Positions 9,479 to 42,716 of a stretch of DNA of 64,000 nucleotides are shown here, one piece after another. Position numbers and translations under genes: made by a program. Source of the DNA: Rhodobiaceae bacterium (GTDB taxonomy: Bacteria; Pseudomonadota; Alphaproteobacteria; Rhizobiales; NORP267). Under the pieces are notes generated by a model that saw only the letters and a list, made by a program, of their open reading frames with translations, made no database searches and had not been told where the DNA came from. The stretch lies in assembly GCA_020441905.1 (NCBI GenBank), contig JAGRLG010000054.1:62001-126000 (forward strand). Direction: 5' to 3'. Position 1 is the stretch's first letter. Every line of letters begins with the position of its first letter.

Positions 9479-10324
9479 TCAATGGGACATCAGTACCGGA
9501 ACGGTCATGTGCTTCAGAATATGCCGGGTAGCACCGCCAAAGACATATTCGCGCACCCGCGAATGTCCATAGGCGCCCATCACCATCAAATCGGCGCCCT
9601 GATCGGCGGCGCGCGACAGCAATTCGTCGCCGATGCCGATCTGGCGGGTGACGGTATGGGTGGTTTCGACCTTGACGCCATGGCGCGACAGGGTTGCCGC
9701 CAGCTCGCTGCCCGGTGTTCCGGTCCCCTCGCCGCCATTCTCGCTTTCAGGATTGGCCCACATCAGGCGCACGCTCTTGGCGCGCTTCAGCAACGGCAGG
9801 GCATCGAATACGGCGCGCACCGATTCGCGCCTCCCGTTCCAGCCGGCCAGCACATTCTGGCCGATAACCTTGAACTTGCCGGCATAGGGCAGAATCAGGA
9901 CCGGGCGGCCGCTCTCCATGACCAGGCGCTCCGCCGTTCCGGCATCGCCTTCAAAGCCGCGCTCGGGGTCGACCTGCCCGGTAACGACCAGGTCGGCGCA
10001 CATGGCGTGCTCGACAATGGTGCTGCTGGTGGCCGGCCCGCCCGCTTCCACCCGGCGCCATTCGCTGACCAGGTCGCCGGGCATTTCGCGGTCGAATATG
10101 GCGCGGATCTTTTCCGCCTGGGCATCATAAAATTTCTGCTCGGCCTCGAACACTTCCGTGGCCACCTGGATCGCCGCGGTGGCATAGAAATACTGAACCT
10201 TGGGAACGACATGCAGCCCGATCACGTGGGCGCCGAATTCCTTGGCGATTCTGACGCCGGCGCTGATAATTTCATCAGCGCGATCGGCGTCCTGCAAATT
10301 CAGCAGAACGGTACGATATCCCAT
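9479..10324 (-). CDS. Universal stress protein (UspA family, tandem-domain length)
   Basis: 281 residues from ATG 10324 (GGGGG ribosome site 9 bp upstream). The N-terminus MGYRTVLLNLQ is typical of Usp beta1. The C-terminal ATP-binding loop LMVMGAYGHSRVREYVFGGATRHIL matches G-x2-G-x9-G-[ST]. The length fits two Usp domains, of which the first lacks an obvious nucleotide loop. Usp genes are often induced by low oxygen, and a TTGAC-N4-GTCAA box lies 74 bp upstream. Confidence 0.88.
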   Translation of the reverse strand: MGYRTVLLNLQDADRADEIISAGVRIAKEFGAHVIGLHVVPKVQYFYATAAIQVATEVFEAEQKFYDAQAEKIRAIFDREMPGDLVSEWRRVEAGGPATSSTIVEHAMCADLVVTGQVDPERGFEGDAGTAERLVMESGRPVLILPYAGKFKVIGQNVLAGWNGRRESVRAVFDALPLLKRAKSVRLMWANPESENGGEGTGTPGSELAATLSRHGVKVETTHTVTRQIGIGDELLSRAADQGADLMVMGAYGHSRVREYVFGGATRHILKHMTVPVLMSH

Positions 10325-17678: not shown

Positions 17679-18890
17679 ATGAGCACAACCGTCCGCGCCT
17701 GGCTGCCCTGGGGAATAGGGGCCGCCCTGGTTCTCGCCGGTCTGGCGGTCGCCTTCCGCCCCCAGCCGGTGCCGGTCGACACCGCGCCGATTTCCACCGG
17801 GCCTGTCGCGGTCACCGTCTCGGGAACCGGCGAGGCGCGGGTACGCGATGTCTACACCATTTCGGCGCCGGTCGAGGGCCGCCTTGGCCGCATCGAAATC
17901 CATGCCGGGGATACGGTGTTCGCCAATGACACCATTGTCGCCCGGATCTATGAGGCCGACCCGACGCCGCTCGACGCGCGCACCAGGGCGACAAGGCAGG
18001 CCGCCGTCAAAGCCGCCGAGGCGTCCCTCGCCCTGGCCAGGGCCGAAGGCGACCGCGCCGCCATCGAGCTCGAATTCGCCCGCTCGCAGCTTGAGCGCTC
18101 GCGCGAGCTGAGCAGCCGCGGCGCGGTTTCAGCCGCCGCCCTCGACCGCGCCCAAACCGAAATGCAGTCGCGCCAGGCCGCCCACGCCACCGCCATCGCC
18201 ATGGTCCAGGTGCGCCTCGCCGAACTCGACCAGGCCAGGGCGGCGCTGATCCAGCCCGCCGATGACCCGGTGCTTCGCGGCCGCGCCGGCTGCTGCGTCG
18301 AGGTTCGCTCGCCGGTGTCGGGCCAGGTGCTTCGCGTGGTGCAGGAGAGCGAGCGCGTGGTGCAGCCGGGCACGCCGCTGCTCGAGATCGGCGCCCCGGA
18401 CGATCTGGAAATCGTCGTCGATCTGCTATCCACCGACGCGGTGCGCCTGGTGCCCGGAGCCCGTGCCACGATCCGCAACTGGGGCCGCCCCGGGGAGATC
18501 GAGGGCAAGGTGCGCCGCATCGAACCTTATGCCTTTACCAAGGTTTCGGCGCTGGGCGTCGAGGAACAGCGGGTCAATGTGCGTATCGACATCGATGCCG
18601 CCAGCGCGACCGCCGAGGGCCTGGCCCATGGCTACCGCGTCGAGGCCGCGATATCGGTTGCCGAGGTCGAAGGCGCGCTGCGCGTTCCGGTCAGCGCCCT
18701 GTTCCGCAACCAGGGAGCCTGGAGCGTCTTTGCCGTCGAGGACGGCCGGGCCCATATCCGCACCCTAAAAATCGGCCATATGAATGATGAATTCGGCGAG
18801 GTGCTGTCCGGCCTGGCCGCGGGCGCCCGCGTCATCATCTATCCCAGCGACCGCATCGGCGAGGACAGCCTGGTCGCCGATCGCGGCTAG
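17679..18890 (+). CDS. HlyD-family periplasmic adaptor protein
   Basis: 403 residues. An uncleaved or signal-anchor N-terminus (WLPWGIGAALVLAGLAVAF) precedes a biotinyl-lipoyl-like domain, split by an alpha-helical hairpin (about residues 105-190, heptad-like Ala/Glu/Arg-rich), then beta-barrel and membrane-proximal domains. Such adaptors link an inner-membrane ABC permease to an outer-membrane channel. No TolC-like gene is present in the window. It ends overlapping the convergent Rrf2 gene by 4 bp. Confidence 0.88.
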   Translation: MSTTVRAWLPWGIGAALVLAGLAVAFRPQPVPVDTAPISTGPVAVTVSGTGEARVRDVYTISAPVEGRLGRIEIHAGDTVFANDTIVARIYEADPTPLDARTRATRQAAVKAAEASLALARAEGDRAAIELEFARSQLERSRELSSRGAVSAAALDRAQTEMQSRQAAHATAIAMVQVRLAELDQARAALIQPADDPVLRGRAGCCVEVRSPVSGQVLRVVQESERVVQPGTPLLEIGAPDDLEIVVDLLSTDAVRLVPGARATIRNWGRPGEIEGKVRRIEPYAFTKVSALGVEEQRVNVRIDIDAASATAEGLAHGYRVEAAISVAEVEGALRVPVSALFRNQGAWSVFAVEDGRAHIRTLKIGHMNDEFGEVLSGLAAGARVIIYPSDRIGEDSLVADRG

Positions 18891-19345
18891 CCCCGCTTTT
18901 CGCCGGCGCGGCCCCCCGCTTCGCCCGGCGCCCGGTCGAAGCGGCCCTGGTCGATAAGCTTGAGCATCGTCGCCAGCGTCACTGAATTCAGCGTCGCCCG
19001 CGAAATATCGTCGATCTCGTCGAGGATGGCCTGAAGCGCCATGCCGCCCTGGGTTTCGGCCTCGCGCCGGGACGTGCCCTCGGACACTTCCACCGGTTCA
19101 AACAGCGAAATGATGTCGAGCAGGGTCGTGCGCTTGACCGAACCGGTGAACAGATAGCCGCCCCCGGCGCCGCGCACCGATTTGACCAGCCCGGACCGCA
19201 CCAGGGTGTTGAGCACCTTGGCCAGGTGATGGATCGATACCCCGTAGGCCTCGCCGATTCCCGCGGCGGGCAGTTGCCTGGTCGGGTCGCGCGCCAGCTC
19301 GAGCACGGCATAGATCGCGATCCGGCTGGAGGTTTGCAGCTTCAT
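18887..19345 (-). CDS. Rrf2-family transcription regulator without Fe-S cysteines
   Basis: 152 residues from ATG 19345 (AGGCAGGA site). It has the Rrf2 winged helix-turn-helix (IGEAYGVSIHHLAKVLNTLVRSGLVKSVRGAGGGYLF). The region after the wing, where NsrR and IscR carry three cysteines, has none (ISLFEPVEVSEGTSRREAE), so it is not a canonical Fe-S sensor. It lies 31 bp downstream of a GNAT gene in a two-gene operon, divergent from the pad operon. BadM of Rhodopseudomonas palustris, a repressor of anaerobic benzoate genes, is also an Rrf2 protein. A similar role here is an inference. Confidence 0.88.
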   Translation of the reverse strand: MKLQTSSRIAIYAVLELARDPTRQLPAAGIGEAYGVSIHHLAKVLNTLVRSGLVKSVRGAGGGYLFTGSVKRTTLLDIISLFEPVEVSEGTSRREAETQGGMALQAILDEIDDISRATLNSVTLATMLKLIDQGRFDRAPGEAGGRAGEKRG

Positions 19346-19376
19346 TGTCCTGCCTCGCGATTTGGCTTGCCGACCG

Positions 19377-19850
19377 TCATTCCATTTCTTTCTCAAGCTG
19401 GATATAGGGGCCGGCGGTCATGCCTTCGCCGCGGAAGAACGACATCAGCAGGTGATTGTCGCGCGCGATCATGGTGCGCACGATCCGCACCCCGCTGTCC
19501 TTGAAGGCGCGCTGGATCCGCTTCAGCAAGGCTTCGCCGACACGGCCCTCGCGCGCGGCGGGATCCACGCTGATGGCAAAGACCCAGCCGCAGGGTTCGG
19601 AACCGAATTCCCATGCCCGGACCTCGCCGATGACGAAGCCGATCGCCGTGGCGCCGCCGTCCTTCCCGCCCGTCCGCTCGGCCAGGTAGATAAAGCGCTC
19701 GCCCAGGCGCTTTTCGCTCAGATTGGCGAACAGGTCGCGCCAATAGTCCGGCTTGAGCACCCCCGATACCAGCTCGTCGACATGCATGAGCTGGCGCCAG
19801 TCGGCTTCCGCCGCCGCGCGAATGCGATAGCCTGCCGGTTCTTCGGCCAT
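19377..19850 (-). CDS. GNAT-family N-acetyltransferase
   Basis: 157 residues from ATG 19850. The GNAT core is visible: YRIRAAAEADWRQL at the start, the beta4 segment GWVFAISVDPAAREGRVGEALL (acetyl-CoA site R/Q-xx-G-x-G/A in a degenerate form) and the C-terminal NHLLMSFFRGEGM. The substrate is unknown. It is the first gene of a two-gene unit with the Rrf2 regulator. In R. palustris the GNAT enzyme BadL acetylates aminobenzoates to make ligands for BadM, so the pairing invites that comparison. Confidence 0.82.
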   Translation of the reverse strand: MAEEPAGYRIRAAAEADWRQLMHVDELVSGVLKPDYWRDLFANLSEKRLGERFIYLAERTGGKDGGATAIGFVIGEVRAWEFGSEPCGWVFAISVDPAAREGRVGEALLKRIQRAFKDSGVRIVRTMIARDNHLLMSFFRGEGMTAGPYIQLEKEME

Positions 19851-19990: not shown

Positions 19991-20132
19991 GATTATCCAG
20001 CTTTTGTACCTCCTCCTTTTGGCGCGTACTTTATGTTGCCGCGCGCGCCATACTCTGTTTCGCTGCCCTCAGTCAGGGGACGGTCAGACGCGCCGCAATG
20101 CCGCAATTTGACATCTTGGCAGAAGCCTGAAT

Positions 20133-20156
20133 CGATAATATGATACGAAATTATCG
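20133..20156. promoter_or_regulatory. Inverted repeat CGATAAT-N10-ATTATCG upstream of pad
   Basis: Perfect 7-bp arms (CGATAAT 20133-20139, ATTATCG 20150-20156). It overlaps ATACGAAATTA (20143-20153), an 11-mer that also occurs in the bcr/kor intergenic region. It lies about 100 bp before the first gene and may be a pathway operator. Confidence 0.45.
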
Positions 20157-20254: not shown

Positions 20255-20686
20255 ATGAAAGACACGTTAAAGCAGGGCGTTAAGACAACCCGCAGGTTCA
20301 CGGTTGACGAAAATCGCGTCATCACCTTTCTCGCCGGGAGCCAGGGCGGCGGCGACGACGGCCGCGTTTACGGCACGCCCTATGTCATCCGCGACATCGA
20401 GCAGACCTGCCGCGACATGCTGCTGGAGCACCTCGACGAGGGCGAGGATTCCCTTGGCACCCATGTCGATATCGCCCATATGGCGCCGACCCTGCTGGGC
20501 ATGTGGGCCGAGGTGACGGTGGAGATCGCCAAGCTCGACGGCCGCGCCGTCTCCTTCAATGTTTCGGTCGCCGACCCGGTGGATGCCGTCGTCGCCAAGG
20601 GCCGCCACGACCGCTTCATCATCGATGTCGCCAAGGTCAAGGAACGCCTCGCCGCAAAGGCTGCCAAAGCAAAGGCCGCACAATGA
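20255..20686 (+). CDS. Hot-dog thioesterase, FlK (fluoroacetyl-CoA thioesterase) type
   Basis: 143 residues of hot-dog fold type. Residues T41, E49 and H75 and the R120 region lie at nearly the same positions as the catalytic and gating residues I recall for FlK, in the contexts GTPYVIRDIEQ, VDIAHMAPT and GRHDRF. It should hydrolyse an acyl-CoA. Its stop overlaps the padB start (ATGA), so it is coupled to phenylacetyl-CoA oxidation. A natural candidate substrate is phenylglyoxylyl-CoA or an unproductive aryl-CoA. This is inference from context only. Confidence 0.78.
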   Translation: MKDTLKQGVKTTRRFTVDENRVITFLAGSQGGGDDGRVYGTPYVIRDIEQTCRDMLLEHLDEGEDSLGTHVDIAHMAPTLLGMWAEVTVEIAKLDGRAVSFNVSVADPVDAVVAKGRHDRFIIDVAKVKERLAAKAAKAKAAQ

Positions 20687-23442
20687 AATTCGTCTCGCGC
20701 AAGTTCCGCACCCAGGCCGACCGCGTCGACAAGAAGGTCAAGACCTTCTGCTACCAGTGCGTCGCCGGCCCCGATCTTCTGACCGTCAATGTCCGCAACG
20801 GCGTTGCCGTCGGCATCGAGCCCGACCTCTCCGCCGCCAGTGTTCATCCCGGCGGCGGCAAGGTCTGCGTCAAGGCCTTCGGCATCGTGCAGAAGGCCTA
20901 CCATCCCAACCGGGTGCTGACGCCGATGAAGCGCACCAATCCCAACAAGGGACGCCACGAGGATCCGGGATTCGTGCCCATCACCTGGGACGAGGCCATG
21001 GACATCATTGCCGACAAGCTCAACGGCGTGCGCGCCACCGGCCTGCTCGACGAATCCGGCTATCCGCGCGTCGCCTTCTCCTCCGGCGGCGGCGGCACGC
21101 CGCAATCCTATATGGGCTCGCTGCCGGCCTTCCTCGCCGCCTGGGGTCCGGTGGATTTCGGCATCGGCTCCGGCCAGGGCGTCAAGTGCACCCATTCGGA
21201 GCATCTTTACGGCGAATTGTGGCACCGCGCCTTCACCGTGGCCGCCGATACCCCGCTCACCCTCTACAACGTGTCCTTCGGCGCCAATATCGAGGCCAGC
21301 GGCGGCGTTTGCGGCGTCTGGCGCCATGCCAATGCCCGCGACCGCGGCATGAAGCGGGTCCAGATCGAGCCGGCGCTCTCCATCACCGGCGCCTGCTCGG
21401 CCGAATGGGTGCCGATCCGCCCCAAGACCGACCCCGCCTTCATGTATGCGATGATCCATGTCGCGCTTTACGAGCACCCGCGCGAGGCTCTCGACATCCC
21501 CTTCCTCAAGGACCGCACCGGCTCGCCCTATCTGATCGCGCCGGATGGTTTTTTCCTGCGCGACAAGAAAACCAAGAAGCCGCTGCTGTGGGATCTCAAG
21601 ACCAAGAAGGCGGTGCCCTTCGATACCCCCGGCACCGATCCGGCGCTGGAAGGCACATTCAAGGTCTCGGGCCTCGAGGTCGGCGTCGATGGCGCCGCCA
21701 CCGAGCACAAGAACATCGAGTGCCGGCCGGCCTTTTCCCATCTGCTCGACCATGTCGCAAACTGCACCCCGGAATGGGCGGCCAAGATCTGCGACGTTCC
21801 GGTGGATACCATCCGCCGTGTCGCCAACGAATTCGTCGCCAATGCCCATGTCGGCGAAACCATCGAGATCGAGGGCCAGGTCCTGCCCTACCGCCCCATT
21901 GCCGTCACCCTTGGCAAGACGGTCAACAATGGCTGGGGCGGCTATGAATGCTGCTGGGCCAGAACCCTGCTCGCCACCCTGTTCGGTGCGCTGGAGGTGC
22001 CCGGCGGCACCCTTGGCACCACGGTGCGCCTCAACAAGCCGCTCGACGACCGTATGGGCTCCCTCGCCCCGAGTCCGGAAGGCTTCCTCGACTATCCGAT
22101 GAACCCGACCGACAAGGAAAACTGGGTGTCGCGGCCCAATATCCGCAACGCCTATCGCACCCTGGTGCCGCTGTCGGGCAATTCATCCTGGAGCCCGGCG
22201 CTGGGACCGACCCATCTGGCCTGGATGTTCCAGGAGGAGCCGCCCAAGAACCTGCCCAAGCCGACCCAGCCCGACGTCTGGTTCGTCTATCGCACCAATC
22301 CGGCCATTTCGGCCTGGGACGCGCCGGGCGTCGCGCGCAAGATCTCGCGCTTCCCCTTCGTCGTTGCCTTCGCCTTCACCATGGACGAGACGAACCACAT
22401 GGCCGACGTCCTGCTGCCCGATTGCGTCGATATCGAGAGCACCCAGCTGTGGCGCGTCGGCGGCACCAAATATGTCGAGCAGTTCTGGCATTATCATGGC
22501 TTCGCCCTGCGCCAGGCGGCGATCGAAGCCCGCGGCGAATCCCGCGACTTCACCGACATCGCCACCGAGCTTGCCGAGCGCACCGGCCTACGCGACGCCT
22601 ATAACAACCGCATCAATCGCGGCGGCCTCGGCGTCCGCCTCAAGGACAAGGGCGGCAAATACGACTTCTCGCTGGAAGAGAACAAACGGCACAGCAAGGA
22701 AGAAATCTGGGACGCGGTGTGCCGCGCCGCCAGCTCCGAGCTTACCGGCGGCAAGAATTCCGACGGCCTGGACTGGTACAAGGAAAACGGCCTCAAGACC
22801 GAGCCCTTCTCCCAGGTCAATTGGTATCTCTACCCGAAAATGGTCGAGATGGGCCTGCGCTTCGAGATGCCCTATCAGGAGCGCCTGCTGCGCGTCGGCA
22901 AGCAATTGGCCAACCGCCTCCACGAGCATGGCATCGACTGGTGGGAGAAGCAGCTCACCGAGTACCAGGCCCTGCCGGCCTGGAAGGACTTCCCCGGCAT
23001 GTGGGAGGAGGACGCCCGCATTTCCTCCGGCGGTGAGGACTTCCCGTTCTGGCTGCTGACCTCGCGCTCGATGCAATATGCCTGGGGCAACAACGTCGCC
23101 CTGCAGATGATCAAGGAAGTGGCCGACAATGTCGCCGGCCATGGCGGCATCATCATCAATGCCGGGCGCGCCGCCGAGCTCGGCATCGGCGAAGGCGACC
23201 TGATCGAGGTCCGCTCGTCGCTGCGCTCAACCAAGGGCATGGCCATCCTGCGCCAGGGCATCCGCCCCGACACCATTCTCATGATCGGCCAGTTCGACCA
23301 CTGGAAGACGCCTTATGCCAAGAACCTCCACACACCCAGCATGAATACGGTCACCCCGATGTCGATGCGGCTGACCGACGCGACCGGCTCCTCCTCGGAC
23401 CTCGTTCGCGTTCAGGTGCGCCGCATTGGAGAAGCAGCATGA
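20683..23442 (+). CDS. padB: Phenylacetyl-CoA:acceptor oxidoreductase, molybdopterin catalytic subunit
   Basis: 919 residues of the DMSO-reductase family. An N-terminal Fe-S region with C23-x2-C26 and C62 is followed by molybdopterin-binding domains and the C-terminal dinucleotide-binding domain (NAGRAAELGIGEGDLIEV). PadBCD oxidises phenylacetyl-CoA to phenylglyoxylate with a quinone-level acceptor in Thauera and Azoarcus. The call rests on similarity as I recall it and on the padB-padC-padD order, with a four-cluster Fe-S protein and a membrane anchor. The third cysteine of the usual C-x2-C-x3-C set is proline (P30), with D31 next. No Tat signal is seen, so a cytoplasmic location is likely. 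Starts farther upstream in the thioesterase gene are rejected. Confidence 0.8.
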   Translation: MKFVSRKFRTQADRVDKKVKTFCYQCVAGPDLLTVNVRNGVAVGIEPDLSAASVHPGGGKVCVKAFGIVQKAYHPNRVLTPMKRTNPNKGRHEDPGFVPITWDEAMDIIADKLNGVRATGLLDESGYPRVAFSSGGGGTPQSYMGSLPAFLAAWGPVDFGIGSGQGVKCTHSEHLYGELWHRAFTVAADTPLTLYNVSFGANIEASGGVCGVWRHANARDRGMKRVQIEPALSITGACSAEWVPIRPKTDPAFMYAMIHVALYEHPREALDIPFLKDRTGSPYLIAPDGFFLRDKKTKKPLLWDLKTKKAVPFDTPGTDPALEGTFKVSGLEVGVDGAATEHKNIECRPAFSHLLDHVANCTPEWAAKICDVPVDTIRRVANEFVANAHVGETIEIEGQVLPYRPIAVTLGKTVNNGWGGYECCWARTLLATLFGALEVPGGTLGTTVRLNKPLDDRMGSLAPSPEGFLDYPMNPTDKENWVSRPNIRNAYRTLVPLSGNSSWSPALGPTHLAWMFQEEPPKNLPKPTQPDVWFVYRTNPAISAWDAPGVARKISRFPFVVAFAFTMDETNHMADVLLPDCVDIESTQLWRVGGTKYVEQFWHYHGFALRQAAIEARGESRDFTDIATELAERTGLRDAYNNRINRGGLGVRLKDKGGKYDFSLEENKRHSKEEIWDAVCRAASSELTGGKNSDGLDWYKENGLKTEPFSQVNWYLYPKMVEMGLRFEMPYQERLLRVGKQLANRLHEHGIDWWEKQLTEYQALPAWKDFPGMWEEDARISSGGEDFPFWLLTSRSMQYAWGNNVALQMIKEVADNVAGHGGIIINAGRAAELGIGEGDLIEVRSSLRSTKGMAILRQGIRPDTILMIGQFDHWKTPYAKNLHTPSMNTVTPMSMRLTDATGSSSDLVRVQVRRIGEAA

Positions 23443-24080
23443 CGCGTTATGTAATGGTCGCCGACCTTCGGCGCTGTGTCGGTTGCCAGACCTGCACCGC
23501 CGCCTGCCGCCACACCAATGCCACTCCGCCCGGCGTGCAATGGCGCCGCGTCATCGATGTCGAGGTAGGCGAATACCCCGATGTCCAGCGCGCCTTCATG
23601 CCGGTGGGCTGCATGCACTGCGCCGATCCGCCCTGCATGGCGGTGTGCCCCTCGACGGCGACGCGCAAACGCGACGATGGCATCGTCACCATCGATTGGG
23701 ACATCTGCATCGGCTGCGCCTATTGCTCCGTCGCCTGCCCCTACCAGGCACGCTACAAGGTGGACAAGGCCGATTTCGCCTATGGCGCCGACGCCGCCGA
23801 AAACGAGGCCGAGCAATACGATCCGCGCAAGCTTGGCGTTTCGACCAAGTGCAATTTCTGCGCCGATCGAATTGACGAGGGCTGCGCCAAGGGCCTCACC
23901 CCCGGCGTCGACCCGGAAGCCACCCCGGCTTGTGTCAATTCCTGCATCGCCGACGCGCTGCATTTCGGAGATATCGAGGATCCGAAGTCCAACGTCTCGA
24001 AGATGTTGAAAGAGCACAAGAATTTCCGCATGCACGAGGATCTCGGCACAGATCCCGGCTTTTATTATCTGTGGGACTGA
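23439..24080 (+). CDS. padC: Phenylacetyl-CoA:acceptor oxidoreductase, iron-sulfur subunit
   Basis: 213 residues, NrfC/DmsB-like, with four [4Fe-4S] motifs: CVGCQTCTAAC near the N-terminus, CMHCADPPCMAVCP, CIGCAYCSVACP, and a fourth formed by CNFC plus the later cysteines around PACVNSC. It would carry electrons from PadB to the PadD anchor. It overlaps padB by 4 bp and is 2 bp from padD. Confidence 0.87.
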   Translation: MTRYVMVADLRRCVGCQTCTAACRHTNATPPGVQWRRVIDVEVGEYPDVQRAFMPVGCMHCADPPCMAVCPSTATRKRDDGIVTIDWDICIGCAYCSVACPYQARYKVDKADFAYGADAAENEAEQYDPRKLGVSTKCNFCADRIDEGCAKGLTPGVDPEATPACVNSCIADALHFGDIEDPKSNVSKMLKEHKNFRMHEDLGTDPGFYYLWD

Positions 24081-24082
24081 AC

Positions 24083-24964
24083 ATGTTTTCCATCAAACCA
24101 GTGGTTCAGGATTATTGGGACTGGCGCGCCGCCGGCAATTTCCTCTTCGGCGGCACCGGCTCGGGGCTGATGATCGTGCTGGCCTTCGCCGCCCTGCTTG
24201 GCGGCGTTTCCTTCCCGCTGCCGGCGCTCATCGCCCTGGCTTTTGTCGGCGCCGGCCTGTTTCTCGTCTGGCTCGAAATCGGCAAGCCTTGGCGGTTTCT
24301 CAACGTCTTTCGCAATCCCTTCACCTCCTGGATGTCGCGCGAGGCCTATGCCGCCGCCTTTCTCACCCTGGCCGGCCTCGCCGCCGCGTGGACGGGATCG
24401 GCGGCGCTGATCGCCCTGGCGGCGGCGCTGGGCGCAGTCTTCCTGTTCTGCCAGGCGCGCATTTTGCACGCCTCGCGGGGAATTCCCGCCTGGCGCGATT
24501 CCTCGGTGCTGCCGGTCATCTTTGCCACCGGCATTGCCGAGGGTACAGCCTTGGCCGCATTGATTCTTTTGGCCGAGCCGTCGCGTCCGGCCTGGCTCCT
24601 GCCCTTGCTGTTGATCGCCCTTTTTGTCCGGGCGCTGACCTTTTTCCAGTACCGCAAACGCATGAGTGACGGCCGCGCGCCGGTTGCCGTCGTGCGCCGC
24701 CTGGCCCGGATCAGCACCACTGTCTGGACCCTGGCATTTGCCGTCCCGGCGGCCCTGGTCGTCATTGCCATGGCCGTGCCGGCGCTGGCTCCGATTGCCA
24801 CCGCAATTGCCGCGATTTGCGCGGTTTTCGGCGGTTGGCACGTCAAGTTCAATATCGTGCGCAAGCTGGCCCATGTTCAGGGCCTGGCGATCGAGCGCAT
24901 GCCTGTGCGCGGCACCCCCGGCATCGCCACCCCCAGCGCCCACCCGGGCTGGCAGCGCGACTGA
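24083..24964 (+). CDS. padD: Phenylacetyl-CoA:acceptor oxidoreductase, membrane anchor subunit (NrfD/DmsC type)
   Basis: 293 residues from ATG 24083, two bases after the padC stop. About eight membrane helices are seen (for example LMIVLAFAALLGGVSFPL and LIALAFVGAGLFLVWL). The FGGTGSGL and EIGKPWRFLNVFRNPFTSWMSRE segments are typical of NrfD/DmsC anchors. It would pass electrons to the quinone pool. It is the last gene of the [18 protein letters not shown] operon. The phenylglyoxylate oxidoreductase genes (padEFGHI) are not in the window. Confidence 0.84.
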   Translation: MFSIKPVVQDYWDWRAAGNFLFGGTGSGLMIVLAFAALLGGVSFPLPALIALAFVGAGLFLVWLEIGKPWRFLNVFRNPFTSWMSREAYAAAFLTLAGLAAAWTGSAALIALAAALGAVFLFCQARILHASRGIPAWRDSSVLPVIFATGIAEGTALAALILLAEPSRPAWLLPLLLIALFVRALTFFQYRKRMSDGRAPVAVVRRLARISTTVWTLAFAVPAALVVIAMAVPALAPIATAIAAICAVFGGWHVKFNIVRKLAHVQGLAIERMPVRGTPGIATPSAHPGWQRD

Positions 24965-25162: not shown

Positions 25163-25639
25163 ATGACCCATAAGCGCGTTCTAAGTCTTACTTTGAACGG
25201 TAAGAACCGGCAGGATCTGGTGCCGGACAATATGCTGCTCGTCGAGTATCTCCGCGAAGTGACCGGCAATACCGGCACCAAGCAGGGCTGCGACGGCGGC
25301 GAATGCGGTGCCTGCACCGTCCTGATCGACGGCGAGCCGCACCTGTCCTGCATCACATTGGCAGCGACGGTCGAAGGCCGCAAGATCGAAACCATCGAAT
25401 CCCTGGCCGTAAACGGCCGCATGTCCGCCCTGCAGCGGGCGTTCCACGAGAAACTCGGCACTCAGTGCGGCTATTGCACGCCGGGCATGATCATGGCTTC
25501 CGAAGCGCTGCTGCGCACCGAGAAAAAGCCCTCCAAGGACACCATTCGCACCGCGCTTGGCGGCAATATCTGCCGCTGCACCGGCTATGTGAAGATCATC
25601 GAGGCGGTTGAAACCGCAGCCGAGGAGGTAGCATCATGA
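25163..25639 (+). CDS. hcrC: 4-hydroxybenzoyl-CoA reductase, gamma subunit (2 x [2Fe-2S])
   Basis: 158 residues from ATG 25163 (GGGGAAGG site). It has the xanthine-oxidase-family Fe-S pattern: [13 protein letters not shown] and a later cysteine in LSC for the plant-type cluster, then CGYCTPGM and CRCTGY for the second cluster. It transfers electrons from reduced ferredoxin to the molybdenum subunit. The gene order C-A-B with 4-bp overlaps is that of Thauera hcr. Confidence 0.92.
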
Positions 25640-27972
25640 ATGTCGTAGCTCGCGGTCATGCCGCCGGCACGCGCCAGCCGCTTGTCGATGGCGTCGAGAA
25701 AGTCACCGGTCGCGCCAAATACTCCGCCGACCTTCCCTTCGCCGACGCGTACGCCGGCGCGGTTTACCGCAGCCCCTATGCCCACGCCGAAATTCTCGAG
25801 CTCGACGTCTCCGCGGCGCGCGCACTTGAAGGCGTGATCGCCGTCGTCACCGGCGATGACGTCAATCACACCTACGGCATTCTGCCCATCGCCATGAACG
25901 AATACTGCATGGCCAAGGGCAAGGTTCGCTATCGCGGCGAGCCGGTGGCCGCCGTCGCCGCCGTCGATCTGCGCACCGCCAAGAAAGCGCTGTCGCTGAT
26001 CAAGATGAAGGTGCGCGAGCTGCCCCAGTACCAGACCGCCGAGGCAGCCCAGGCGCCCGACGCGGTGCTGCTGCATGACGACAAGCCCGGCAATATCGAG
26101 CGCGAGGTCAAGCATTCCTTCGGCGATGTCGCCGCCGGATTCGCCGATGCCGACCTGGTCCGCGAAGGCACCTATCATTGCGGCGAGGTCACCCACCTCC
26201 ACATGGAACCGCATGCCTGCCTGGCCGAATTCGACGACGAACGCCAGGAACTGATCCTCAAGACCTGCTCGCAGGTGCCCTATTACGTGCACCTGATGCT
26301 GGAACGCTGCATGGAGATGGACTCGTCCAAGATCCGGGTCATCAAGCCGTTTGTCGGCGGCGGTTTCGGCGCCCGCACCGAAACCTTGAATTTCGAGATC
26401 ATCGCCTGCCTGCTGGCCCGTGCCGCCAAGGGCAAGGTTGCTCTTCACCTCAATCGCGAAGAGACCTTCCTCACCCATCGCGGGCGCCAGGAAACCATCG
26501 TCAACATCAAGATCGGCCTGACCAAGGAAGGCAAGATCACTGCGGTGGACCAGATGGTCAAGCAGCTGGGCGGCGCCTATGCCGGCTATGGCATCGTCAC
26601 CATTCTGTATTCCGGCTCGCTGCTGCACGGGATCTATGACATCCAAGCCTCCAATTATCACGGCCAGCGCATCTATGTGAACCGTCCGCCCTGCGGCGCC
26701 ATGCGCGGCCATGGCGGCGTCAACATGCGTCACGCCTTCGAGTCGCTGCTCGACGAAATGGCCGAGGAACTCGGGCTTGACCCCTTCGCGGTGCGCCGGG
26801 CCAACCTGCTCACCGCGCCGACCCAGACCCTGAACGGGCTGCTCGTGACCAGCTACGGTCTTGATCAGTGCCTCGACCGGGTCGAGGAAGGCAGCAAGTG
26901 GAAAGAGCGCTGGGGCAAGCTGCCCAAGGGCAAGGGCCTCGGCATGGCCTGCTCGCATTATGTGTCGGGCGCCGCCAAGCCGGTGCACTGGACCGGGGAG
27001 CCCCATGCCACCGTCAACGTCAAGATGGACTTCGACGGCGGTGTTACCATCCTCACCGGCGCCGCCGATATCGGCCAGGGTTCCTCGACCGTGGTCGCGC
27101 TGGCCGTCGCCGAAGTCTGCAAGCTCGATCTCGGCCGCATCCGCGTTATCGCCAATGACAGCGCGGTGACGCCGAAGGACAACGGCTCCTATTCCTCGCG
27201 CGTCACCTACATGGTCGGCAACGCCGCCATCGACGCCGGCCGCGCCCTCAACGACGTGCTGGTGGCCGCCGCTGCCGCCAAGCTCGACGCCAAGCCGGAG
27301 GACATCGAGGTCGAGAACGAAACCTACCGCGTCGCCGGCAGCCAGGATCCGGGGCTGACTTTCAAGGAAGTCTGCGCCCAGGCGCTGGTCGACACCGGCT
27401 GCATCACCGTCAAGGGCACCTTCACCGTCCCCACCGAGTTCCAGGGCGGCAAGCATCGCGGCGCCGCGGTCGGCTCGACCATGGGCTTCAGCTACGGCGC
27501 CGTCGTCTGCGAGGTCGATGTCGACGAGGACACCGGGCTGGTCAGTGTCGACAAGGTCTGGGTCGCTCACGACTGCGGTTTCGCCATCAACCCGCTATCG
27601 GTCGAAGGCCAGGTCGAAGGCGCGATCTGGATGGGCATGGGCCAGGCCTTGAGCGAGGTCACCACCTTCAATGCCAAGAACGGCCTGCCGATGCATGCCA
27701 ACCTGCTCGACTACCGGGTCCCGACCATTGTCGAGTCGCCCCCCATCGAGACCTATATCGTCGAGGCCAACGATCCCAACGGCCCCTTCGGCGCCAAGGA
27801 AGCCAGCGAAGGCGCCTTGCCGGCCTTCATGGCAGCCTTCACCGCCGCCATCTACAACGCCACCGGGCTGCGCATAAACACGCTGCCGGTCACCCCAGAC
27901 AAGCTGGTCGAGGCGCTGTCCAAGAAGCAGCACCGCGACAAAGTTGAAGCTGCCAAACGGAGCAATGCATGA
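25636..27972 (+). CDS. hcrA: 4-hydroxybenzoyl-CoA reductase, alpha subunit (molybdenum cofactor)
   Basis: 778 residues of the xanthine oxidase family, with [21 protein letters not shown], the cofactor segment [11 protein letters not shown] and a C-terminal [11 protein letters not shown]. The enzyme removes the phenolic hydroxyl of 4-hydroxybenzoyl-CoA to give benzoyl-CoA, the entry compound for the bcr operon nearby. A related CoA-ester hydroxylase or dehydrogenase of the same family would be the alternative, but the HcrB Fe-S insertion strongly favours HCR. Overlaps hcrC and hcrB by 4 bp each. Confidence 0.9.
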
Positions 27973-28943
27973 CCGAGGTACTTCCCGAGTTCCGCGTGGT
28001 GCGTCCTGCCACCGCGCAGGAGGCCGCCGCGGCACACCGCGACAATGAAGGCGCCCGCTATCTGGCCGGCGGCACGGATCTGATCCCCAATGTCCGCCGC
28101 GGCATTGGCGACCCCGACCTGCTGATCGACCTTGGCGGCATTGCCGATCTGAAGAAAATCGAAGTTGGCGCCAATGGCGCCCGCATCGGCGCCGGCGTGA
28201 CGCTGGCGCATCTGGCGAAAAACGCGCAGATCGCCGCCGCCTATCCGGCCGTCATCACCGCCGCCAAGTCGATCGCCGGCCCCGGCCACCGCGCCGCCGG
28301 CACCGTTGGCGGCAATGTCTGTCTCGACACCCGTTGCGTGTTCTACAACCAGAGCCAGTGGTGGCGGGAATCGAATAATTTCTGCCTCAAATACAAGGGC
28401 GACACCTGCCATGTCGCGCCCAAGAGCACCTATTGCCACGCCGCCTATAGCGGCGATCTGGCGCCAGTGCTGCTGGTCATGGGGGCGCAGGTCGAAGTCA
28501 CCGGGCCGGAAGGCTCGCGGACCATTGCCCTGCCCGACCTCTATGGCGAAGACGGCCAGAACTATCTGGCGCTGAAGCGCGGCGAGTTCGTGACCGCCGT
28601 GCTGCTGCCCAAGGATGTCCTGCCGACGGTCTACGAGAAGATGCGCGTGCGCGGCGCCATCGACTTCCCGCTGGCCGGCGTCGCCGTGGCACTCAGGCGC
28701 GATGGCGACAAGATCGGCGATCTGAAGGTCGCCGTGACCGGCACCAATTCCCGCCCCTTCATTGTCGAGGGTATCGAGGAATTAGTCGGTGGCCCGCTTT
28801 CCGACGAGGTGCTCGACAAGATCGGCGACCTGGTCCAGAAGCAGGTTTCGCCAATGCGGACCACCCTGGTTGCGCCCTTCGGCCGCCGCCGCATCGCCGC
28901 GGCCCTGGCCCGGCGCCAGGCCAGCGCCCTTTTCGCCGGGTAA
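27969..28943 (+). CDS. hcrB: 4-hydroxybenzoyl-CoA reductase, beta subunit (FAD and extra [4Fe-4S])
   Basis: 324 residues. The FAD-binding fold shows [11 protein letters not shown] and [14 protein letters not shown] cysteine-rich insertion holds C123, C139, C147 and C156, with spacings 16, 8 and 9. From memory this matches the four ligands of the additional [4Fe-4S] cluster that distinguishes 4-hydroxybenzoyl-CoA reductase from other xanthine-oxidase-family enzymes. That insertion decides the name of the operon. The stop TAA overlaps the next ATG by one base. Confidence 0.94.
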
Positions 28944-29530
28944 TGGGCCTGAAGGGCCTCAACCCGTTCAAAAGGGGCCGGCCCGCCTGGGTCGGCAAGA
29001 TCAGTGATGACAGCCGGCGGATCGATGTCCGCCGGCTGATTGCGTCCGGCGAGGACCCCCTTGGCGAGGTCGTCGCCCTGGCCGGAAAAATCGCCCTGGG
29101 CGAAACACTGACCATCGACGCGCCTTTCAACCCGGTGCCGCTTCGCCGCGTTCTCGAAGCCCAGGGTTTTGAAAGCCATGGCGAGGAAGTCGCGAGCGCG
29201 CACTGGCGCGTCTGGCTGCGTCGTGTCGCCGCCAGCGGCCACGGCCACGGCCAGGGCGCCGCGCCAGGCGGCAGCGCCGGCAGCGCCGCGCAAATCGTCC
29301 AGGACGAAACCGGCTGGACGGTGGACGGGCGCGGCGTTCCGCCGCCCGGCCCCATGCTGGCGGTCATAGCGCTCATTGAAACGCCCGCAATCGCCGGACC
29401 GGTCTTCGTTCATCTGGACCGCGACCCCGTTCATCTCTATTCCGAATTGACCGAGCGCCACTGGAAGTGGACCCGGCTTGAAAGCGAGCCCGCCGAGGTT
29501 CGCTTGCGCCTCGATAAGGAAAGCACATGA
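28943..29530 (+). CDS. DUF2249-domain protein
   Basis: 195 residues with two degenerate copies of the DUF2249 pattern: IDVRRLIASGEDPLGEVV to RVWLRR, and a second from about residue 120 (GWTVDGRGVPPPGPMLAV to VRLRL), joined by a His/Gly/Ala-rich linker. DUF2249 proteins are common beside denitrification genes, and their role is unclear. It overlaps hcrB by one base and the next membrane-protein gene by 4 bp, so it is probably expressed with hcr. A strong hairpin lies in its codons 23-32. Confidence 0.72.
   Translation: MGLKGLNPFKRGRPAWVGKISDDSRRIDVRRLIASGEDPLGEVVALAGKIALGETLTIDAPFNPVPLRRVLEAQGFESHGEEVASAHWRVWLRRVAASGHGHGQGAAPGGSAGSAAQIVQDETGWTVDGRGVPPPGPMLAVIALIETPAIAGPVFVHLDRDPVHLYSELTERHWKWTRLESEPAEVRLRLDKEST
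29011..29038 (+). other. Perfect 11-bp hairpin inside the DUF2249 coding region
   Basis: CAGCCGGCGGA (29011-29021) and TCCGCCGGCTG (29028-29038) form a perfect stem with a 6-nt loop, about 70 bp after the hcrB stop. No T-run follows. It could limit or stabilise the distal part of the hcr transcript. Confidence 0.45.
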
Positions 29531-30819
29531 GCATCGGCCCGACCTTTCTTGGCGGCGCGCAAAGCCGTCTTCTGCCGCCATCGGTTCCATTCCGGTTTTT
29601 CATCGCCGGAATAGCCTTTCACATCCTGATGTGGGCCTTCCTGTTCTATGCCGCCGATCTGGCGCCCGATTTCGCCGGCGGCCCGGGACCCGCGCTGGCC
29701 GCCCTCCATCTCCTGACCCTTGGCGTTTTCGGCACCGTCGCCATTGGCGCCGCGCTGCAGATGCTGCCCGTCGCCACAAGGCGCCCGATGCCCGCCGCCT
29801 GGCCGCTGCGCCTTGCGTTCTGGCTCTATGTTCCGGGCGTGCTGGTGCTGGTCCACGGCATGGCCAATTACAGCCCGGCATGGATGGCGGCTGGGGGCGT
29901 CCTTGCCGGCGGCGGCCTCTTCGTCCTCGCCTGGCTGCTCGCCGGCAATTTGCGCCAGGCCTCTGACCTGCCTCTGGTCTCGGCCTATGGCTGGCTGGCG
30001 GTCAGCTCGCTGTTCATCCTTGTCCTGCTGGGCCTGGGCCTGGTCTTCGACTTTTCCGCCGCGCTGCTACCGGACCACCGCGCCGTTGCCCTCGCCCATC
30101 TCACCATCGCCGTTTTCGGCTTCATGGGCATGCTGGCCATCGGCTTCAGCCATGTCCTGGTGCCCATGTTCACCCTCGCCGCCGCGCCGACAGGAACCAT
30201 CGGCCGCATCGGGCTGGGCGCCTGGGCCGCGGCCATCCTGATCTGCACCGCCGGCGCCCTCGCCGCCGCGCCATGGCTCTTCGCCCTCGGCCTGTGCCTG
30301 GCCCTTGCCGGCACCGGCATCTATCTGTGGACCATGAACGCCATCTGGACCAAGCGCATGCGCAAGCGCATGGGGTTGTCCTTCCTTCTCGTCCGCATCT
30401 CCTGGGCGGTGCTGCCCCTCGGGCTCGTTCTGGCGCTTGCCGCCACCTTCGATCTCCTTGGGCCGCGTGGTCCGGCCATCGCCGGCTTCGTGCTGCTGTG
30501 GGGATGGCTGCTCACCTTCCTGATGGGCATCCTGCAACGCATCATGCCGTTTCTGGCCTCGATGCATGCCGCCAAGATCAAGGGCAAACCGCCCCTGCTG
30601 TCGGAACTGACCGCCGAGCGCCCGCTTCAGATTCACGCCTATGGACACCTCGCCGCCCTGGTCCTCGCCGTCGCCGGCATTGCATTCGGCATCCCGCTGC
30701 TGATTCAGGCTGGTGCCGCCGCGGGATTTTTTGCCGCCTTGGCCTTCGCGGCATTTGCCCTGGTGCTGGTCCGTAGACTATTCTCGAACAATGAAGTGGC
30801 GGCCTCGAGCAATGCGTGA
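29527..30819 (+). CDS. NnrS-like / haem-copper-oxidase-I-like membrane protein
   Basis: 430 residues and about 12 membrane helices. Conserved histidines sit in helices as LAALHLLTLGVFGTVAIGAALQMLPV, LAHLTIAVFGFMGMLAIGFSH and LLTFLMGILQRIMPF. Such proteins occur next to DUF2249 genes in denitrifiers and resemble NnrS and the catalytic-subunit fold. Their biochemical role is not established. The 4-bp overlap with the DUF2249 gene makes the two a unit at the end of the hcr operon. Confidence 0.7.
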   Translation: MSIGPTFLGGAQSRLLPPSVPFRFFIAGIAFHILMWAFLFYAADLAPDFAGGPGPALAALHLLTLGVFGTVAIGAALQMLPVATRRPMPAAWPLRLAFWLYVPGVLVLVHGMANYSPAWMAAGGVLAGGGLFVLAWLLAGNLRQASDLPLVSAYGWLAVSSLFILVLLGLGLVFDFSAALLPDHRAVALAHLTIAVFGFMGMLAIGFSHVLVPMFTLAAAPTGTIGRIGLGAWAAAILICTAGALAAAPWLFALGLCLALAGTGIYLWTMNAIWTKRMRKRMGLSFLLVRISWAVLPLGLVLALAATFDLLGPRGPAIAGFVLLWGWLLTFLMGILQRIMPFLASMHAAKIKGKPPLLSELTAERPLQIHAYGHLAALVLAVAGIAFGIPLLIQAGAAAGFFAALAFAAFALVLVRRLFSNNEVAASSNA

Positions 30820-30967
30820 CGACCGGACAAGATGCGAGCAAATTGCGGCCGCCTTGTTCCCGCCCCTGGCATGGCGCCGCGCTTCGGCGCATGGCATCCG
30901 CCCATCGGCACCGCCGCGCCGACAGCCCCAAAGCCCATCCCGCGGCAAGCCTTGAGGAATGAATAAA

Positions 30968-30997
30968 TTGGTATTATAGTACCAAAATAATATTATT
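30968..30997. promoter_or_regulatory. A/T-rich palindromes upstream of the hemerythrin-GNAT genes
   Basis: TTGGTA-TTATAG-TACCAA (30968-30985) has perfect 6-bp arms and is followed at once by the perfect palindrome AATAATATTATT (30986-30997). They lie 31-60 bp before the hemerythrin ATG, in very GC-rich surroundings. An operator and core promoter is likely. The rest of the 208-bp gap after the NnrS-like gene shows nothing else. Confidence 0.45.
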
Positions 30998-31027
30998 GGC
31001 CGGCGTCCAGAAGTTGAGGTTTATCCG

Positions 31028-31531
31028 ATGCACCATATGCGTAACATCACCAACACCCTGCACAATGAGCACATGGCGACGATTTCGCTTCTCAACCGGA
31101 TGGAGGAGCAGGTGATGGCGCATCGTCCGGGCAACCCGCCCAATGCCGCCGACGACGAAGTCGCAAAACTGCTGCGCGACATTGCCAGCAACGTCGAATC
31201 CGAGATCAGCGGGCATTTCTCGTTCGAGGAAGAGCATCTTTTCACCCGCCTGGCGGAAATGGGCGACGAGAATATCGGCATCCTGCTCACCGAGGAACAC
31301 CATGTCATGCTCCCTATCGGCCAGCGCCTCGTCGCGTTGTCCAAGGAAGCGCGGCAGAACGGGTTCACGGTCGAGAACTGGGAAGAATTCCGCCGCCTTG
31401 TCGGCGAATTCATCGAGCGAATGATCGCCCACATACAAAAAGAAGAAATGGGTCTGTTACCCGTTCTCGACGACGTCATTGACGATGAGGAAGACGGCCA
31501 ATTGAGTACCGCTTACGCGATGAGCCGCTAG
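31028..31531 (+). CDS. Hemerythrin HHE-domain protein
   Basis: 167 residues, all-alpha, with diiron-type motifs NTLHNEHMATISLL, ISGHFSFEEEHLF, LTEEHHVMLPIGQRL and MIAHIQKEEMGLLPVL. These give the H...HxxxE...H...HxxxxD/E pattern of hemerythrins. Likely roles are binding O2 or NO, or delivering iron. Two acetyltransferase genes follow on the same strand. It lies between hcr and bcr, both oxygen-sensitive systems. Confidence 0.85.
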   Translation: MHHMRNITNTLHNEHMATISLLNRMEEQVMAHRPGNPPNAADDEVAKLLRDIASNVESEISGHFSFEEEHLFTRLAEMGDENIGILLTEEHHVMLPIGQRLVALSKEARQNGFTVENWEEFRRLVGEFIERMIAHIQKEEMGLLPVLDDVIDDEEDGQLSTAYAMSR

Positions 31532-31560
31532 AGGCCATCTACACCAGGGGAGCCAACCAT

Positions 31561-32058
31561 ATGGCAAGCAGTAATACCGCAACTTCGAAGGGCAAGAGGA
31601 CGTCGAACCTCGTATTGCGCCCTCTCCAGGCCGGCGACCTTGACGCCGCAATCGCAATCGACGCCGCCGTGGGGGGCCGGGTCCGTCGCGGCTTCTTCGA
31701 GCGCCGTCTGACCGCCGCGACCAAGGACCCCAAGGGGTTCATCTATGTCGGTGCTGAGGAAGACGGGCAGCTGAAGGGCTTTGCCATGGTTCACGTCCTC
31801 GCCGGCGAATTCGGCGCGCCCGGTGAAATCGCCGTTCTGGACGCCGTCGGCGTCGACCCGGCGGCGCAGGGGCGCGGCATCGGCCGCGCCTTGATGGCAC
31901 GGGTCGACGAGGTGATGCGGGACAAGAAGATCAGCGAAATGCACACCCAGGCCGACTGGACCGATCTCAGCCTGCTCGGCTTTCTGGATGCCGCCGGATT
32001 CGAACTCGCCCCCCGCACCATACTCGCGCGCGATATCGGTAACCCCAACAGCTGGTAG
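31561..32058 (+). CDS. GNAT-family acetyltransferase, first of a tandem pair
   Basis: 165 residues. After a basic, disordered start (TATSKGKRTSN) the GNAT domain shows LRPLQAGDLDAAIAID, VDPAAQGRGIGRALMARVDE (the acetyl-CoA loop Q-x-R-G-x-G) and LGFLDAAGFE. The substrate is unknown. Anaerobic aromatic pathways are known to be controlled by GNAT enzymes in R. palustris (Pat on acyl-CoA ligases, BadL on aminobenzoates), so a regulatory role next to bcr is plausible but unproven. Confidence 0.87.
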   Translation: MASSNTATSKGKRTSNLVLRPLQAGDLDAAIAIDAAVGGRVRRGFFERRLTAATKDPKGFIYVGAEEDGQLKGFAMVHVLAGEFGAPGEIAVLDAVGVDPAAQGRGIGRALMARVDEVMRDKKISEMHTQADWTDLSLLGFLDAAGFELAPRTILARDIGNPNSW

Positions 32059-40981: not shown

Positions 40982-42712
40982 GTGACAAACCAGCGCAAAG
41001 TACAATCAAGCCTCTCCGTCGCCGTCACAGGCAGCGGCGGTGCAGGCGTCATGACCGCAGGCGGATTCCTGCTCGAGGCTGCGGCACGCAGCGGCTGGTT
41101 CGGGTTGATGACCCGATCCGTCGGGCCACAGATCCGCGGCGGCGAGGCAGCGGCTCTGCTGCGTTTTTCCAACCGCCGGGTCGATGTCCCGGCCGAGTCC
41201 TACAACATTCTGTTCGTTGTCGACTGGCTCAATTTCGATCGCTTCTCGGCCGAAATCCACCTGACTCCCGATACCATGGTCATTGCCGACCCCGATTCGG
41301 GCGAGGTGCCGGAAGTGGTCGTCAAGTCGGGCGCGCGCATGTTCGACATGCCGGTCAAGCAGGTGCTTGGCGCCATCGAGGGCGGCCGCCCCAACATGCT
41401 GGCGACCGGCGTCGTCGGCGGCATCATCGGCCTGCCGATCGACACCATTTACGAACTCATCCAGGACAATCTCGGCTCCAAGGGCGAAAAAGCGGTCAAT
41501 TCGAGCAAGGCCACCGTCGAAGCCGGCTACCGCTTCGCCGAAACCCTGACCGACGCCCCCGCGCTGGCGGAACCGAAAAAATCGGACAAGAGGCGCTGGA
41601 TCATCACCGGCAACGAGGCCGCCGGCCTTGGCGCCGTGCGCGGCGGCGTACGCTTTGCCGCCGCGTATCCGATCACGCCCGGCACCGAGATTCTGGAATG
41701 GCTGGCGCCCAACCTGCGCAAGCTTGGCGGCGCCCTGGTGCAGGCCGAGGACGAACTGGCCTCGATCAACATGGTCATTGGCGGCTCCTATGGCGGCGTT
41801 CCCGCGATCACCGCCACCTCCGGCCCCGGCCTGGCGCTGATGACCGAGTCCATCGGCCTGGCGGTTGCCGCCGAAGTGCCCTGCGTCATTGTCGACGTCA
41901 TGCGCGGCGGCCCCTCCACCGGCATTCCGACCAAGTCCGAACAGTCGGATCTCAACATTGCCGTCTATGGGCTGCATGGCGACGCACCCCATATCGTCAC
42001 CGCCCCCAATTCAGTCTCCGATTGCCTGTTCACCACCCAGTGGTCGGTGTACCTCGCCGAGGCGATGCAGACCCCGGCAATCGTGCTGTCCGACCAGTTC
42101 ATCGGCCAGGCCAAGATCGTCATCGATCCGCCTGCGGACATAGCCTTTGTCGGCAAGCGCCTGCTCGCCCAGAACATCGAGGGCGAATACCGGCGCTATG
42201 CTGTCACTGAATCGGGCGTGTCCCCGATGGCGGTTCCCGGCGTTGCCGGCGGCCAGCACACCGCTGACGGCCTCGAGCACAATCCGCGCGGCACGCCGTC
42301 AACCCGCGCCGAAGACCACATGACGCAGATGAACAAGCGCCTGCGCAAGATCACAGGCTTTGATTACGGCTCGCACTGGGCCGAAATCGACGGCGAGGGC
42401 GAACTGGCGGTCCTGACCTGGGGATCGTGCACCGCCGCCGCCCTCGAGGCGGTGGAAGCGGCCCGCGAGGCCGGCATCGCGGTCAAGCTCATTTCGCTGC
42501 GCCTGATTTCGCCCTGCCTGCCCGACGCCATGGCCAAGGCCCTGGAAGGGGTCAAGAAGGTCCTGGTTGTCGAACAGACCCATTCGGGCCAGTTCGCCAA
42601 TTACCTCAGGGCCCAGTACGAACTTCCCTCCGAGGTTCGCAGCTATCACATTCCCGGCCCCCTCACCATTCGCCCCTCAGAAATTCTGAGCCAAATTCAG
42701 GACTGGAGCTAA
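40982..42712 (+). CDS. korA: 2-oxoglutarate:ferredoxin oxidoreductase, fused gamma-alpha subunit
   Basis: 576 residues from a GTG start. The N-terminal gamma domain (about 1-190, with GSGGAGVMTAGGFLLEAA and SVGPQIRGGEAAALLR) is fused to an alpha domain with AYPITPGTEILEWL and TSGPGLALMTE, followed by a C-terminal domain ending near residue 576. KorAB decarboxylates 2-oxoglutarate and reduces the ferredoxin that feeds benzoyl-CoA reductase. The two-subunit form is as in Thauera. Other 2-oxoacids, including phenylglyoxylate, cannot be excluded from sequence. Confidence 0.92.
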   Translation: MTNQRKVQSSLSVAVTGSGGAGVMTAGGFLLEAAARSGWFGLMTRSVGPQIRGGEAAALLRFSNRRVDVPAESYNILFVVDWLNFDRFSAEIHLTPDTMVIADPDSGEVPEVVVKSGARMFDMPVKQVLGAIEGGRPNMLATGVVGGIIGLPIDTIYELIQDNLGSKGEKAVNSSKATVEAGYRFAETLTDAPALAEPKKSDKRRWIITGNEAAGLGAVRGGVRFAAAYPITPGTEILEWLAPNLRKLGGALVQAEDELASINMVIGGSYGGVPAITATSGPGLALMTESIGLAVAAEVPCVIVDVMRGGPSTGIPTKSEQSDLNIAVYGLHGDAPHIVTAPNSVSDCLFTTQWSVYLAEAMQTPAIVLSDQFIGQAKIVIDPPADIAFVGKRLLAQNIEGEYRRYAVTESGVSPMAVPGVAGGQHTADGLEHNPRGTPSTRAEDHMTQMNKRLRKITGFDYGSHWAEIDGEGELAVLTWGSCTAAALEAVEAAREAGIAVKLISLRLISPCLPDAMAKALEGVKKVLVVEQTHSGQFANYLRAQYELPSEVRSYHIPGPLTIRPSEILSQIQDWS

Positions 42713-42716
42713 TCCC

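Follow-up and report, generated by a model that had tools for sequence, protein, structure and literature searches.

Denitrifiers bring phenylalanine, tyrosine and related aromatic compounds into benzoyl-coenzyme A (benzoyl-CoA) by oxidising phenylacetate and 4-hydroxyphenylacetate anaerobically. The 2-oxoacid oxidoreductases involved, PadEFGHI and its relatives, use the free 2-oxo acid and make the CoA ester anew. Phenylglyoxylyl-CoA hydrolase activity carries the number EC 3.1.2.25. For strain EbN1, phenylglyoxylyl-CoA is stated, in the pathway passage of one paper, to be formed and then hydrolysed (PMC9765128), and a passage of a 2026 paper gives the pathway enzymes as phenylacetyl-CoA dehydrogenase, thioesterase, and phenylglyoxylate dehydrogenase (PMC13416013). 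The corresponding passage on the D. multivorans genome assigns the steps to PadJ, PadBCD, and PadEFGHI and names no thioesterase besides them (PMC5109826). In a further paper the acyl-CoA thioesterase described is next to the aerobic box genes rather than next to pad (PMC6449761). A full-text literature search, with subscription papers mostly outside it, returned no paper tying an FlK-type gene to the CoA-release step. The family is named for the fluoroacetyl-CoA thioesterase FlK of Streptomyces cattleya (3p3f, 3kv7), in which Thr42, Glu50, and His76 are presumably catalytic and a segment with Phe33 and Phe36 forms what we take to be a hydrophobic lid.

Here we describe a 64,000-nucleotide stretch of a Rhodobiaceae bacterium genome (GCA_020441905.1, contig JAGRLG010000054.1, positions 62,001 to 126,000; hereafter the window), in which a gene for a 143-amino-acid FlK-type hot-dog thioesterase (20255..20686, forward strand) overlaps the start of padB, the gene for the molybdopterin catalytic subunit of phenylacetyl-CoA oxidoreductase (20683..23442, forward strand). 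The padBCD layout is shared with the Pad pathway known from Thauera aromatica, Azoarcus evansii, and Aromatoleum aromaticum EbN1. Unlike those systems, the source genome, listed as 94% complete, had no PadG over the cut-off (best match 285.7 bits against 700). The thioesterase gene also differs in position: in Azoarcus taiwanensis (on one contig) and Thauera aminoaromatica (across two contigs) it comes after padJ and a synthetase gene, whereas in the window it comes before padB. We propose, with a probability of about 0.62, that the window protein is a dedicated aryl-glyoxylyl-CoA thioesterase, which would free aryl-glyoxylate after PadBCD has acted.

Linkage of the thioesterase gene to padB

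The thioesterase reading frame ends ...CACAATGA, and the padB ATG at 20683 shares with it the four bases ATGA (20683..20686, forward strand). The 4-bp overlap described in the original prediction can thus be read directly in the sequence, and the span it gave, 20255-23442, comprises exactly the thioesterase gene and padB. Such ATGA overlaps are frequent in bacteria, and we found one in 17 of 69 FlK/padB pairs, the start codons being those chosen by a scoring script. More weight lies on how often the pair recurs. A promoter-like TTGGCA-17-TATGAT (20116-20144, a consensus match only) lies 5′ of the thioesterase gene, and the two genes are very probably co-transcribed.

Recurrence was examined in named genomes, where the best 80 of 520 confirmed PadB relatives were taken as loci, so that the counts describe close relatives of the window PadB rather than all PadBs; two of the loci (L082 and L095) came from one genome and two (L028 and L077) are a single locus. 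An FlK-type gene stood directly upstream of padB, meaning on the same strand and within 600 bases, in 57 of the 80, and 5.7 kb upstream in one other (L048). The adjacent cases came from records titled as alpha-, beta-, and gammaproteobacteria and from two Chloroflexi bins (L069, L093). The flanks of these 57 loci were variable, with padEFGHI in 9, iorAB in 8, hcrCAB in 8, korAB in 15, and none of these in 25. The constancy of the thioesterase with padB while the flanking modules vary points to the PadB step.

The same association emerged from samples at two taxonomic levels, which overlap in some genomes, the source genome included. Among 289 genomes of the class, PadB was present in 14 and FlK in 38; FlK was found in all 14 genomes with PadB, adjacent to it in 12, versus 24 of the 275 without (Fisher p 4e-14, a guide only, related genomes not being independent). 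For the phylum, a profile was built from 43 thioesterases (41 encoded beside padB, the window's own, and that of L048). Across 398 phylum genomes it exceeded 190 bits in three, the next best match scoring 105 bits, and these three were also the only genomes with PadB. G522 carries the pair in tandem; in G482 the two genes are adjacent but divergent. Distances among the FlK proteins also followed those among their PadB partners (68 pairs, Mantel r 0.65, with 0 of 2000 permutations as high), a correlation to which shared genome ancestry contributes. Plasmid searches returned no second case of the pair. The linkage of the thioesterase gene to padB is not a matter of chance, and genome context supports the coupling that the original prediction put forward, both by adjacency in 57 of the 80 loci and by the shared restriction to three of the 398 phylum genomes; conservation beside padB in other genomes, which it had named as a check, was indeed found.

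The identity of padB itself was also considered. Its 919-amino-acid product is a molybdopterin oxidoreductase (PF00384, PF01568) and is followed, on the same strand, by padC for a 4Fe-4S ferredoxin-type subunit (23439..24080, Fer4 family matches) and padD for an NrfD/DmsC-type membrane subunit (24083..24964; PF03916, E 1.9e-6, and PF04976), which together give the three-gene PadBCD layout. A search of the product against NCBIfam models gave none above cut-off. It shares, however, 65% identity with its counterpart in T. aminoaromatica S2 (L088), where two subunit genes come next, followed by those for PadE, F, G, H, I, and a phenylacetate-CoA ligase, all over NCBIfam cut-offs. Since a close named relative sits in a padEFGHI cluster, we regard the assignment as sound, and the window PadBCD is predicted to act on a phenylacetyl-CoA-type ester.

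Several observations concern the PadB subunits and their gene calls. The N-terminal cluster motif C-x2-C-[AV][AS]GP[DE] was present in 91 of 96 PadB rows (residues 23-62 in the window protein, Cys62 being the next invariant cysteine); its third cysteine, presumably usual for this enzyme class, is absent. Judged by length and clustering, padC and padD appear fused in many clusters, with a gene of 520-590 amino acids after padB (for example, L031 and L103), and in L058 and L067 a gene of about 980-1000 amino acids appears to join padC, padD, and a ligase. Start codons and some calls of the gene-calling script were unreliable in GC-rich contigs, and L195, L203, L205, and L206 were re-read frame by frame. 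One open frame of 1281 amino acids had suggested an FlK-PadB fusion, an idea that was dropped, FlK being a separate called gene there.

Family, fold, and phylogeny of the thioesterase

The window thioesterase matched PF22636 (FlK) with E 3.2e-26 and 91.9 bits, against a gathering cut-off of 27, and the solved fluoroacetyl-CoA thioesterase 3p3f with E 1.4e-14, at 28% identity. Its AlphaFold model (predicted local distance difference test 95.2, predicted template modelling score 0.87) has the hot-dog fold, and its best PDB matches were FlK (Z 18.0 over 131 residues, root-mean-square deviation 3.1) and Thermus TTHA0967 (Z 17.5). Thr41, Glu49, and His75 align with the FlK triad Thr42, Glu50, and His76, and Gly68 and Arg120 with FlK Gly69 and Arg120. 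Across 71 padB-adjacent rows the threonine and the glutamate were each kept in 70, with one gap each, and the histidine in all 71.

The likeness to S. cattleya FlK has limits. The segment corresponding to Phe33-Phe36 is gapped in the window protein and in 93 of 95 rows of the PadB-linked branch (three genes being counted twice among the 95), the branch is separate from that of the S. cattleya protein, and the gene neighbourhood is another. The label "FlK-type" in the original prediction therefore stands for family and fold and fails for the segment that holds the lid phenylalanines. Within the branch, Phe25, Arg37, Tyr39, Pro42, Asp47, and Phe121 (numbered as in the window protein) hardly vary, and they are less common outside it; Arg53 is invariant in a 43-row alignment and present in 82 of the 95 branch rows.

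Other solved hot-dog proteins were more distant. TTHA0967 (2cwz), Thermotoga TM0581 (2q78), and Taci_0573 (3qoo) are alike in fold (Z 17.1 to 17.5), but differ in sequence, at 18-24% identity, and their entries say only hypothetical or thioesterase-like. The 4-hydroxybenzoyl-CoA thioesterase of Arthrobacter sp. SU and E. coli YdiI, both hot-dog enzymes solved with aromatic acyl-CoA analogues, reached Z of about 13.3 to 13.9, but belong to other families and share 8-10% identity with the window protein.

Phylogenetic reconstruction of 109 FlK rows, made by a quick search on few columns, placed 88 in one branch (Shimodaira-Hasegawa-like approximate likelihood ratio test support 100), comprising 71 padB-adjacent rows, 4 from elsewhere in pad clusters, and 13 others, among them L048 (5.7 kb from padB) and L203 (on a contig with a padJ-like gene). 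S. cattleya FlK and the source genome's other FlK fell outside; the gene of the latter (L042, G000:C41, about 8.1-8.5 kb) sits, as judged by eye, in an apparent row of respiratory complex I (nuo) genes. In the class sample, 44 of 45 FlK matches were placed (G064:C18, L165, was below threshold). The branch received 20 of them, 12 encoded beside padB and 2 elsewhere in PadB genomes, and none of the 24 outside it lay beside padB. At L152, L153, and L197-L202 the branch FlK occurs in a conserved cluster with a thiolase, an acyl-CoA dehydrogenase, CoA-transferase-like proteins, and a luciferase-like monooxygenase.

CoA release and its alternatives

Cleavage of the ester is needed because PadBCD would yield a 2-oxo-acyl-CoA while the next enzyme takes the free acid. 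In the scheme that we propose, PadBCD would oxidise phenylacetyl-CoA, and probably also 4-hydroxyphenylacetyl-CoA, to the 2-oxo-acyl-CoA; the thioesterase would cleave it, by way of the Thr/Glu/His site known from FlK, into free aryl-glyoxylate and CoA; and the aroyl-CoA would then be formed by a 2-oxoacid oxidoreductase, either PadEFGHI or, in other clusters, one resembling IorAB or KorAB. Substrate, direction of reaction, and any physical coupling to PadBCD are predictions from genome context and conserved residues. That context favours finishing the PadBCD reaction over clearing dead-end esters, the two roles offered in the original prediction. The thioesterase is a conserved candidate gene for a CoA-ester cleavage step otherwise without a gene in the literature searched and, as a fixed partner of padB, a marker gene for PadB-type pathways. 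A more far-reaching version, which we consider improbable as a whole, would assign CoA release in the anaerobic oxidation of arylacetates to the FlK-like branch: the protein, a constant partner of PadB, would bind it, take the 2-oxo-acyl-CoA by hand-over, and recognise its 2-oxo group through Arg37, Asp47, and Arg53, and where it was lost an ADP-forming acyl-CoA synthetase would do the step, conserving the thioester energy as ATP.

Several results weigh against a dedicated aryl-glyoxylyl-CoA thioesterase. No FlK was present in the flank examined at 19 of the 80 padB loci, with three more running off the contig, and the source genome itself carries a second PadB, 62% identical to that of the window, without an adjoining FlK. 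The branch received a support of only 0.56 in an enlarged FastTree reconstruction of 129 rows, which gave the same branch. Moreover, 8 branch rows lie in thiolase/acyl-CoA dehydrogenase/CoA-transferase clusters of other PadB genomes, 3 of the 13 other branch rows are in genomes with no PadB match, and so are 6 of the 20 branch members from the class sample; the branch therefore does not always go together with PadB. Among 23 PadB genomes in which FlK was not adjacent or adjacency was not assessable, five had no FlK at all (L049, L064, L073, L100, and L107), although the L064 contig has padB at its very start and the genome of L073, at 2.7 Mb, is small. The thioesterase is thus dispensable in some genomes, unless another enzyme steps in. 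Finally, Rhee and Fuchs are said to have stated in a 1999 abstract that the purified Thauera enzyme hydrolysed phenylglyoxylyl-CoA, from which it would follow either that a small partner co-purified or that PadBCD does this itself, leaving the thioesterase as an aid or for salvage.

The other 18 of the 23 genomes have FlK elsewhere. In A. taiwanensis a single contig carries the end of padH, padI, padJ, an ADP-forming acyl-CoA synthetase, and an FlK that closes the pad cluster. In T. aminoaromatica S2 the synthetase and FlK genes end one contig, and another ends with padJ and the beginning of a synthetase gene (52.5% identical across 80 residues), which fits the same gene order across the contig break. 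Our provisional view that the studied betaproteobacterial pad cluster has no thioesterase was therefore wrong: FlK follows padJ, where contigs break. Three further genomes (L212-L214) have a second PadB adjoined by FlK. In L100, at about 9934-9986, FlK is cut to approximately its first ten codons and last bases around a short repeat, while the near-twin L101 is intact; this could reflect genuine loss of the sequence or a collapse in metagenome assembly. When the FlK-lacking loci were searched for a non-homologous thioesterase standing in for FlK before padB, one case alone emerged, the alpha/beta hydrolase before the source genome's second padB (L023). A recurrent gene of 240-253 amino acids before padB, present at six loci (L026, L027, L053, L056, L065, L085, and L086, L027 being the L065 locus), was rejected as a substitute, as its sequence, read by eye, is that of a Crp/Fnr-type regulator.

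An unlikely alternative is salvage, in which PadBCD itself releases phenylglyoxylate and the thioesterase recovers CoA held in arylacetyl- and aryl-CoA esters that the ligase and PadBCD have made as dead ends or by misactivation, thereby sparing a small CoA pool. It would predict the same gene pair, and it accommodates the five FlK-free genomes, the 8 branch rows in other CoA-ester clusters, and the hydrolysis reportedly seen with the purified enzyme. A salvage enzyme would be expected to follow the ligase, however, whereas this gene is tied to padB whatever lies downstream, and in the phylum sample the PadB-linked type occurred only with PadB.

We regard as doubtful a division into two CoA-release routes, with hydrolysis by FlK in most clusters and release of phenylglyoxylate by an ADP-forming acyl-CoA synthetase (PF13607/PF13380), making ATP, in some. 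The FlK-free genomes of L049, L100, and L107 do carry a synthetase in their pad clusters, and it was found in 9 of the 23 genomes without adjacent or assessable FlK versus 2 of 23 with it, the latter being hand-picked from the 57 adjacent loci. Yet within the flanks the contrast shrinks to 3 of 20 versus 1 of 57 (p 0.05), two of the five FlK-free genomes have no synthetase, the genomes of L061, L088, L097, L110, and L121 have it alongside FlK, and the synthetase could simply be an arylacetate ligase.

Very unlikely, in our estimate, is a brake, by which the thioesterase would act on phenylacetyl-CoA or 4-hydroxyphenylacetyl-CoA and undo the ligase reaction when quinone is reduced and PadBCD stalls. 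The gene adjoins those handling the arylacetyl-CoA ester and the lid is shortened, but the result would be a futile ATP-consuming cycle beside an enzyme needing the same substrate, and the sequence offers no evidence of it. Mere chance neighbours or general operon filler, which the commonness of 4-bp overlaps might by itself allow, are refuted by the co-occurrence seen in the 80-locus scan, the tree, the Fisher and Mantel tests, and the phylum sample.

The surrounding cluster and the second pad locus

Downstream of padD, on the same strand, lie the genes for a 4-hydroxybenzoyl-CoA reductase: hcrC for the [2Fe-2S] subunit (25163..25639; PF01799, PF00111; named by its position beside hcrA and hcrB), hcrA (25636..27972; TIGR03194, 1189.7 bits, cut-off 994.55), and hcrB (27969..28943; TIGR03195, 461 bits, cut-off 404.55). 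Their position adjoining padBCD suggests 4-hydroxyphenylacetyl-CoA as a putative substrate of the window PadBCD, instead of or besides phenylacetyl-CoA. Benzoyl-CoA reductase genes, a dienoyl-CoA hydratase, and a 6-oxocyclohexene-carbonyl-CoA hydratase follow at 33.9-39.6 kb, and a 2-oxoacid:acceptor oxidoreductase pair at 40982-43550. This region of the window is an anaerobic aromatic-degradation cluster.

The second pad cluster of the source genome (L023, G000:C13, 8146-19383) encodes the alpha/beta hydrolase, padB, padC, padD, a phenylacetate-CoA ligase, a regulator, and IorA-like and POR/DUF6537 proteins. The last two may replace PadEFGHI there, and 9 of the 80 named pad loci have an IorAB-like pair of this type.

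Two further groups of genes recur with pad. Divergent from the thioesterase gene, on the reverse strand at 18890-19850, are a small regulator and an acetyltransferase, identified by eye as Rrf2-like and GNAT-type, respectively; the same two recur before padB elsewhere, the regulator in 17 of the 57 adjacent loci. After hcrB, at 28943-32058, genes for a DUF2249 protein, a 430-amino-acid protein with no Pfam match, and, by eye, a hemerythrin-like and a second GNAT-type protein are likewise found in other pad clusters.

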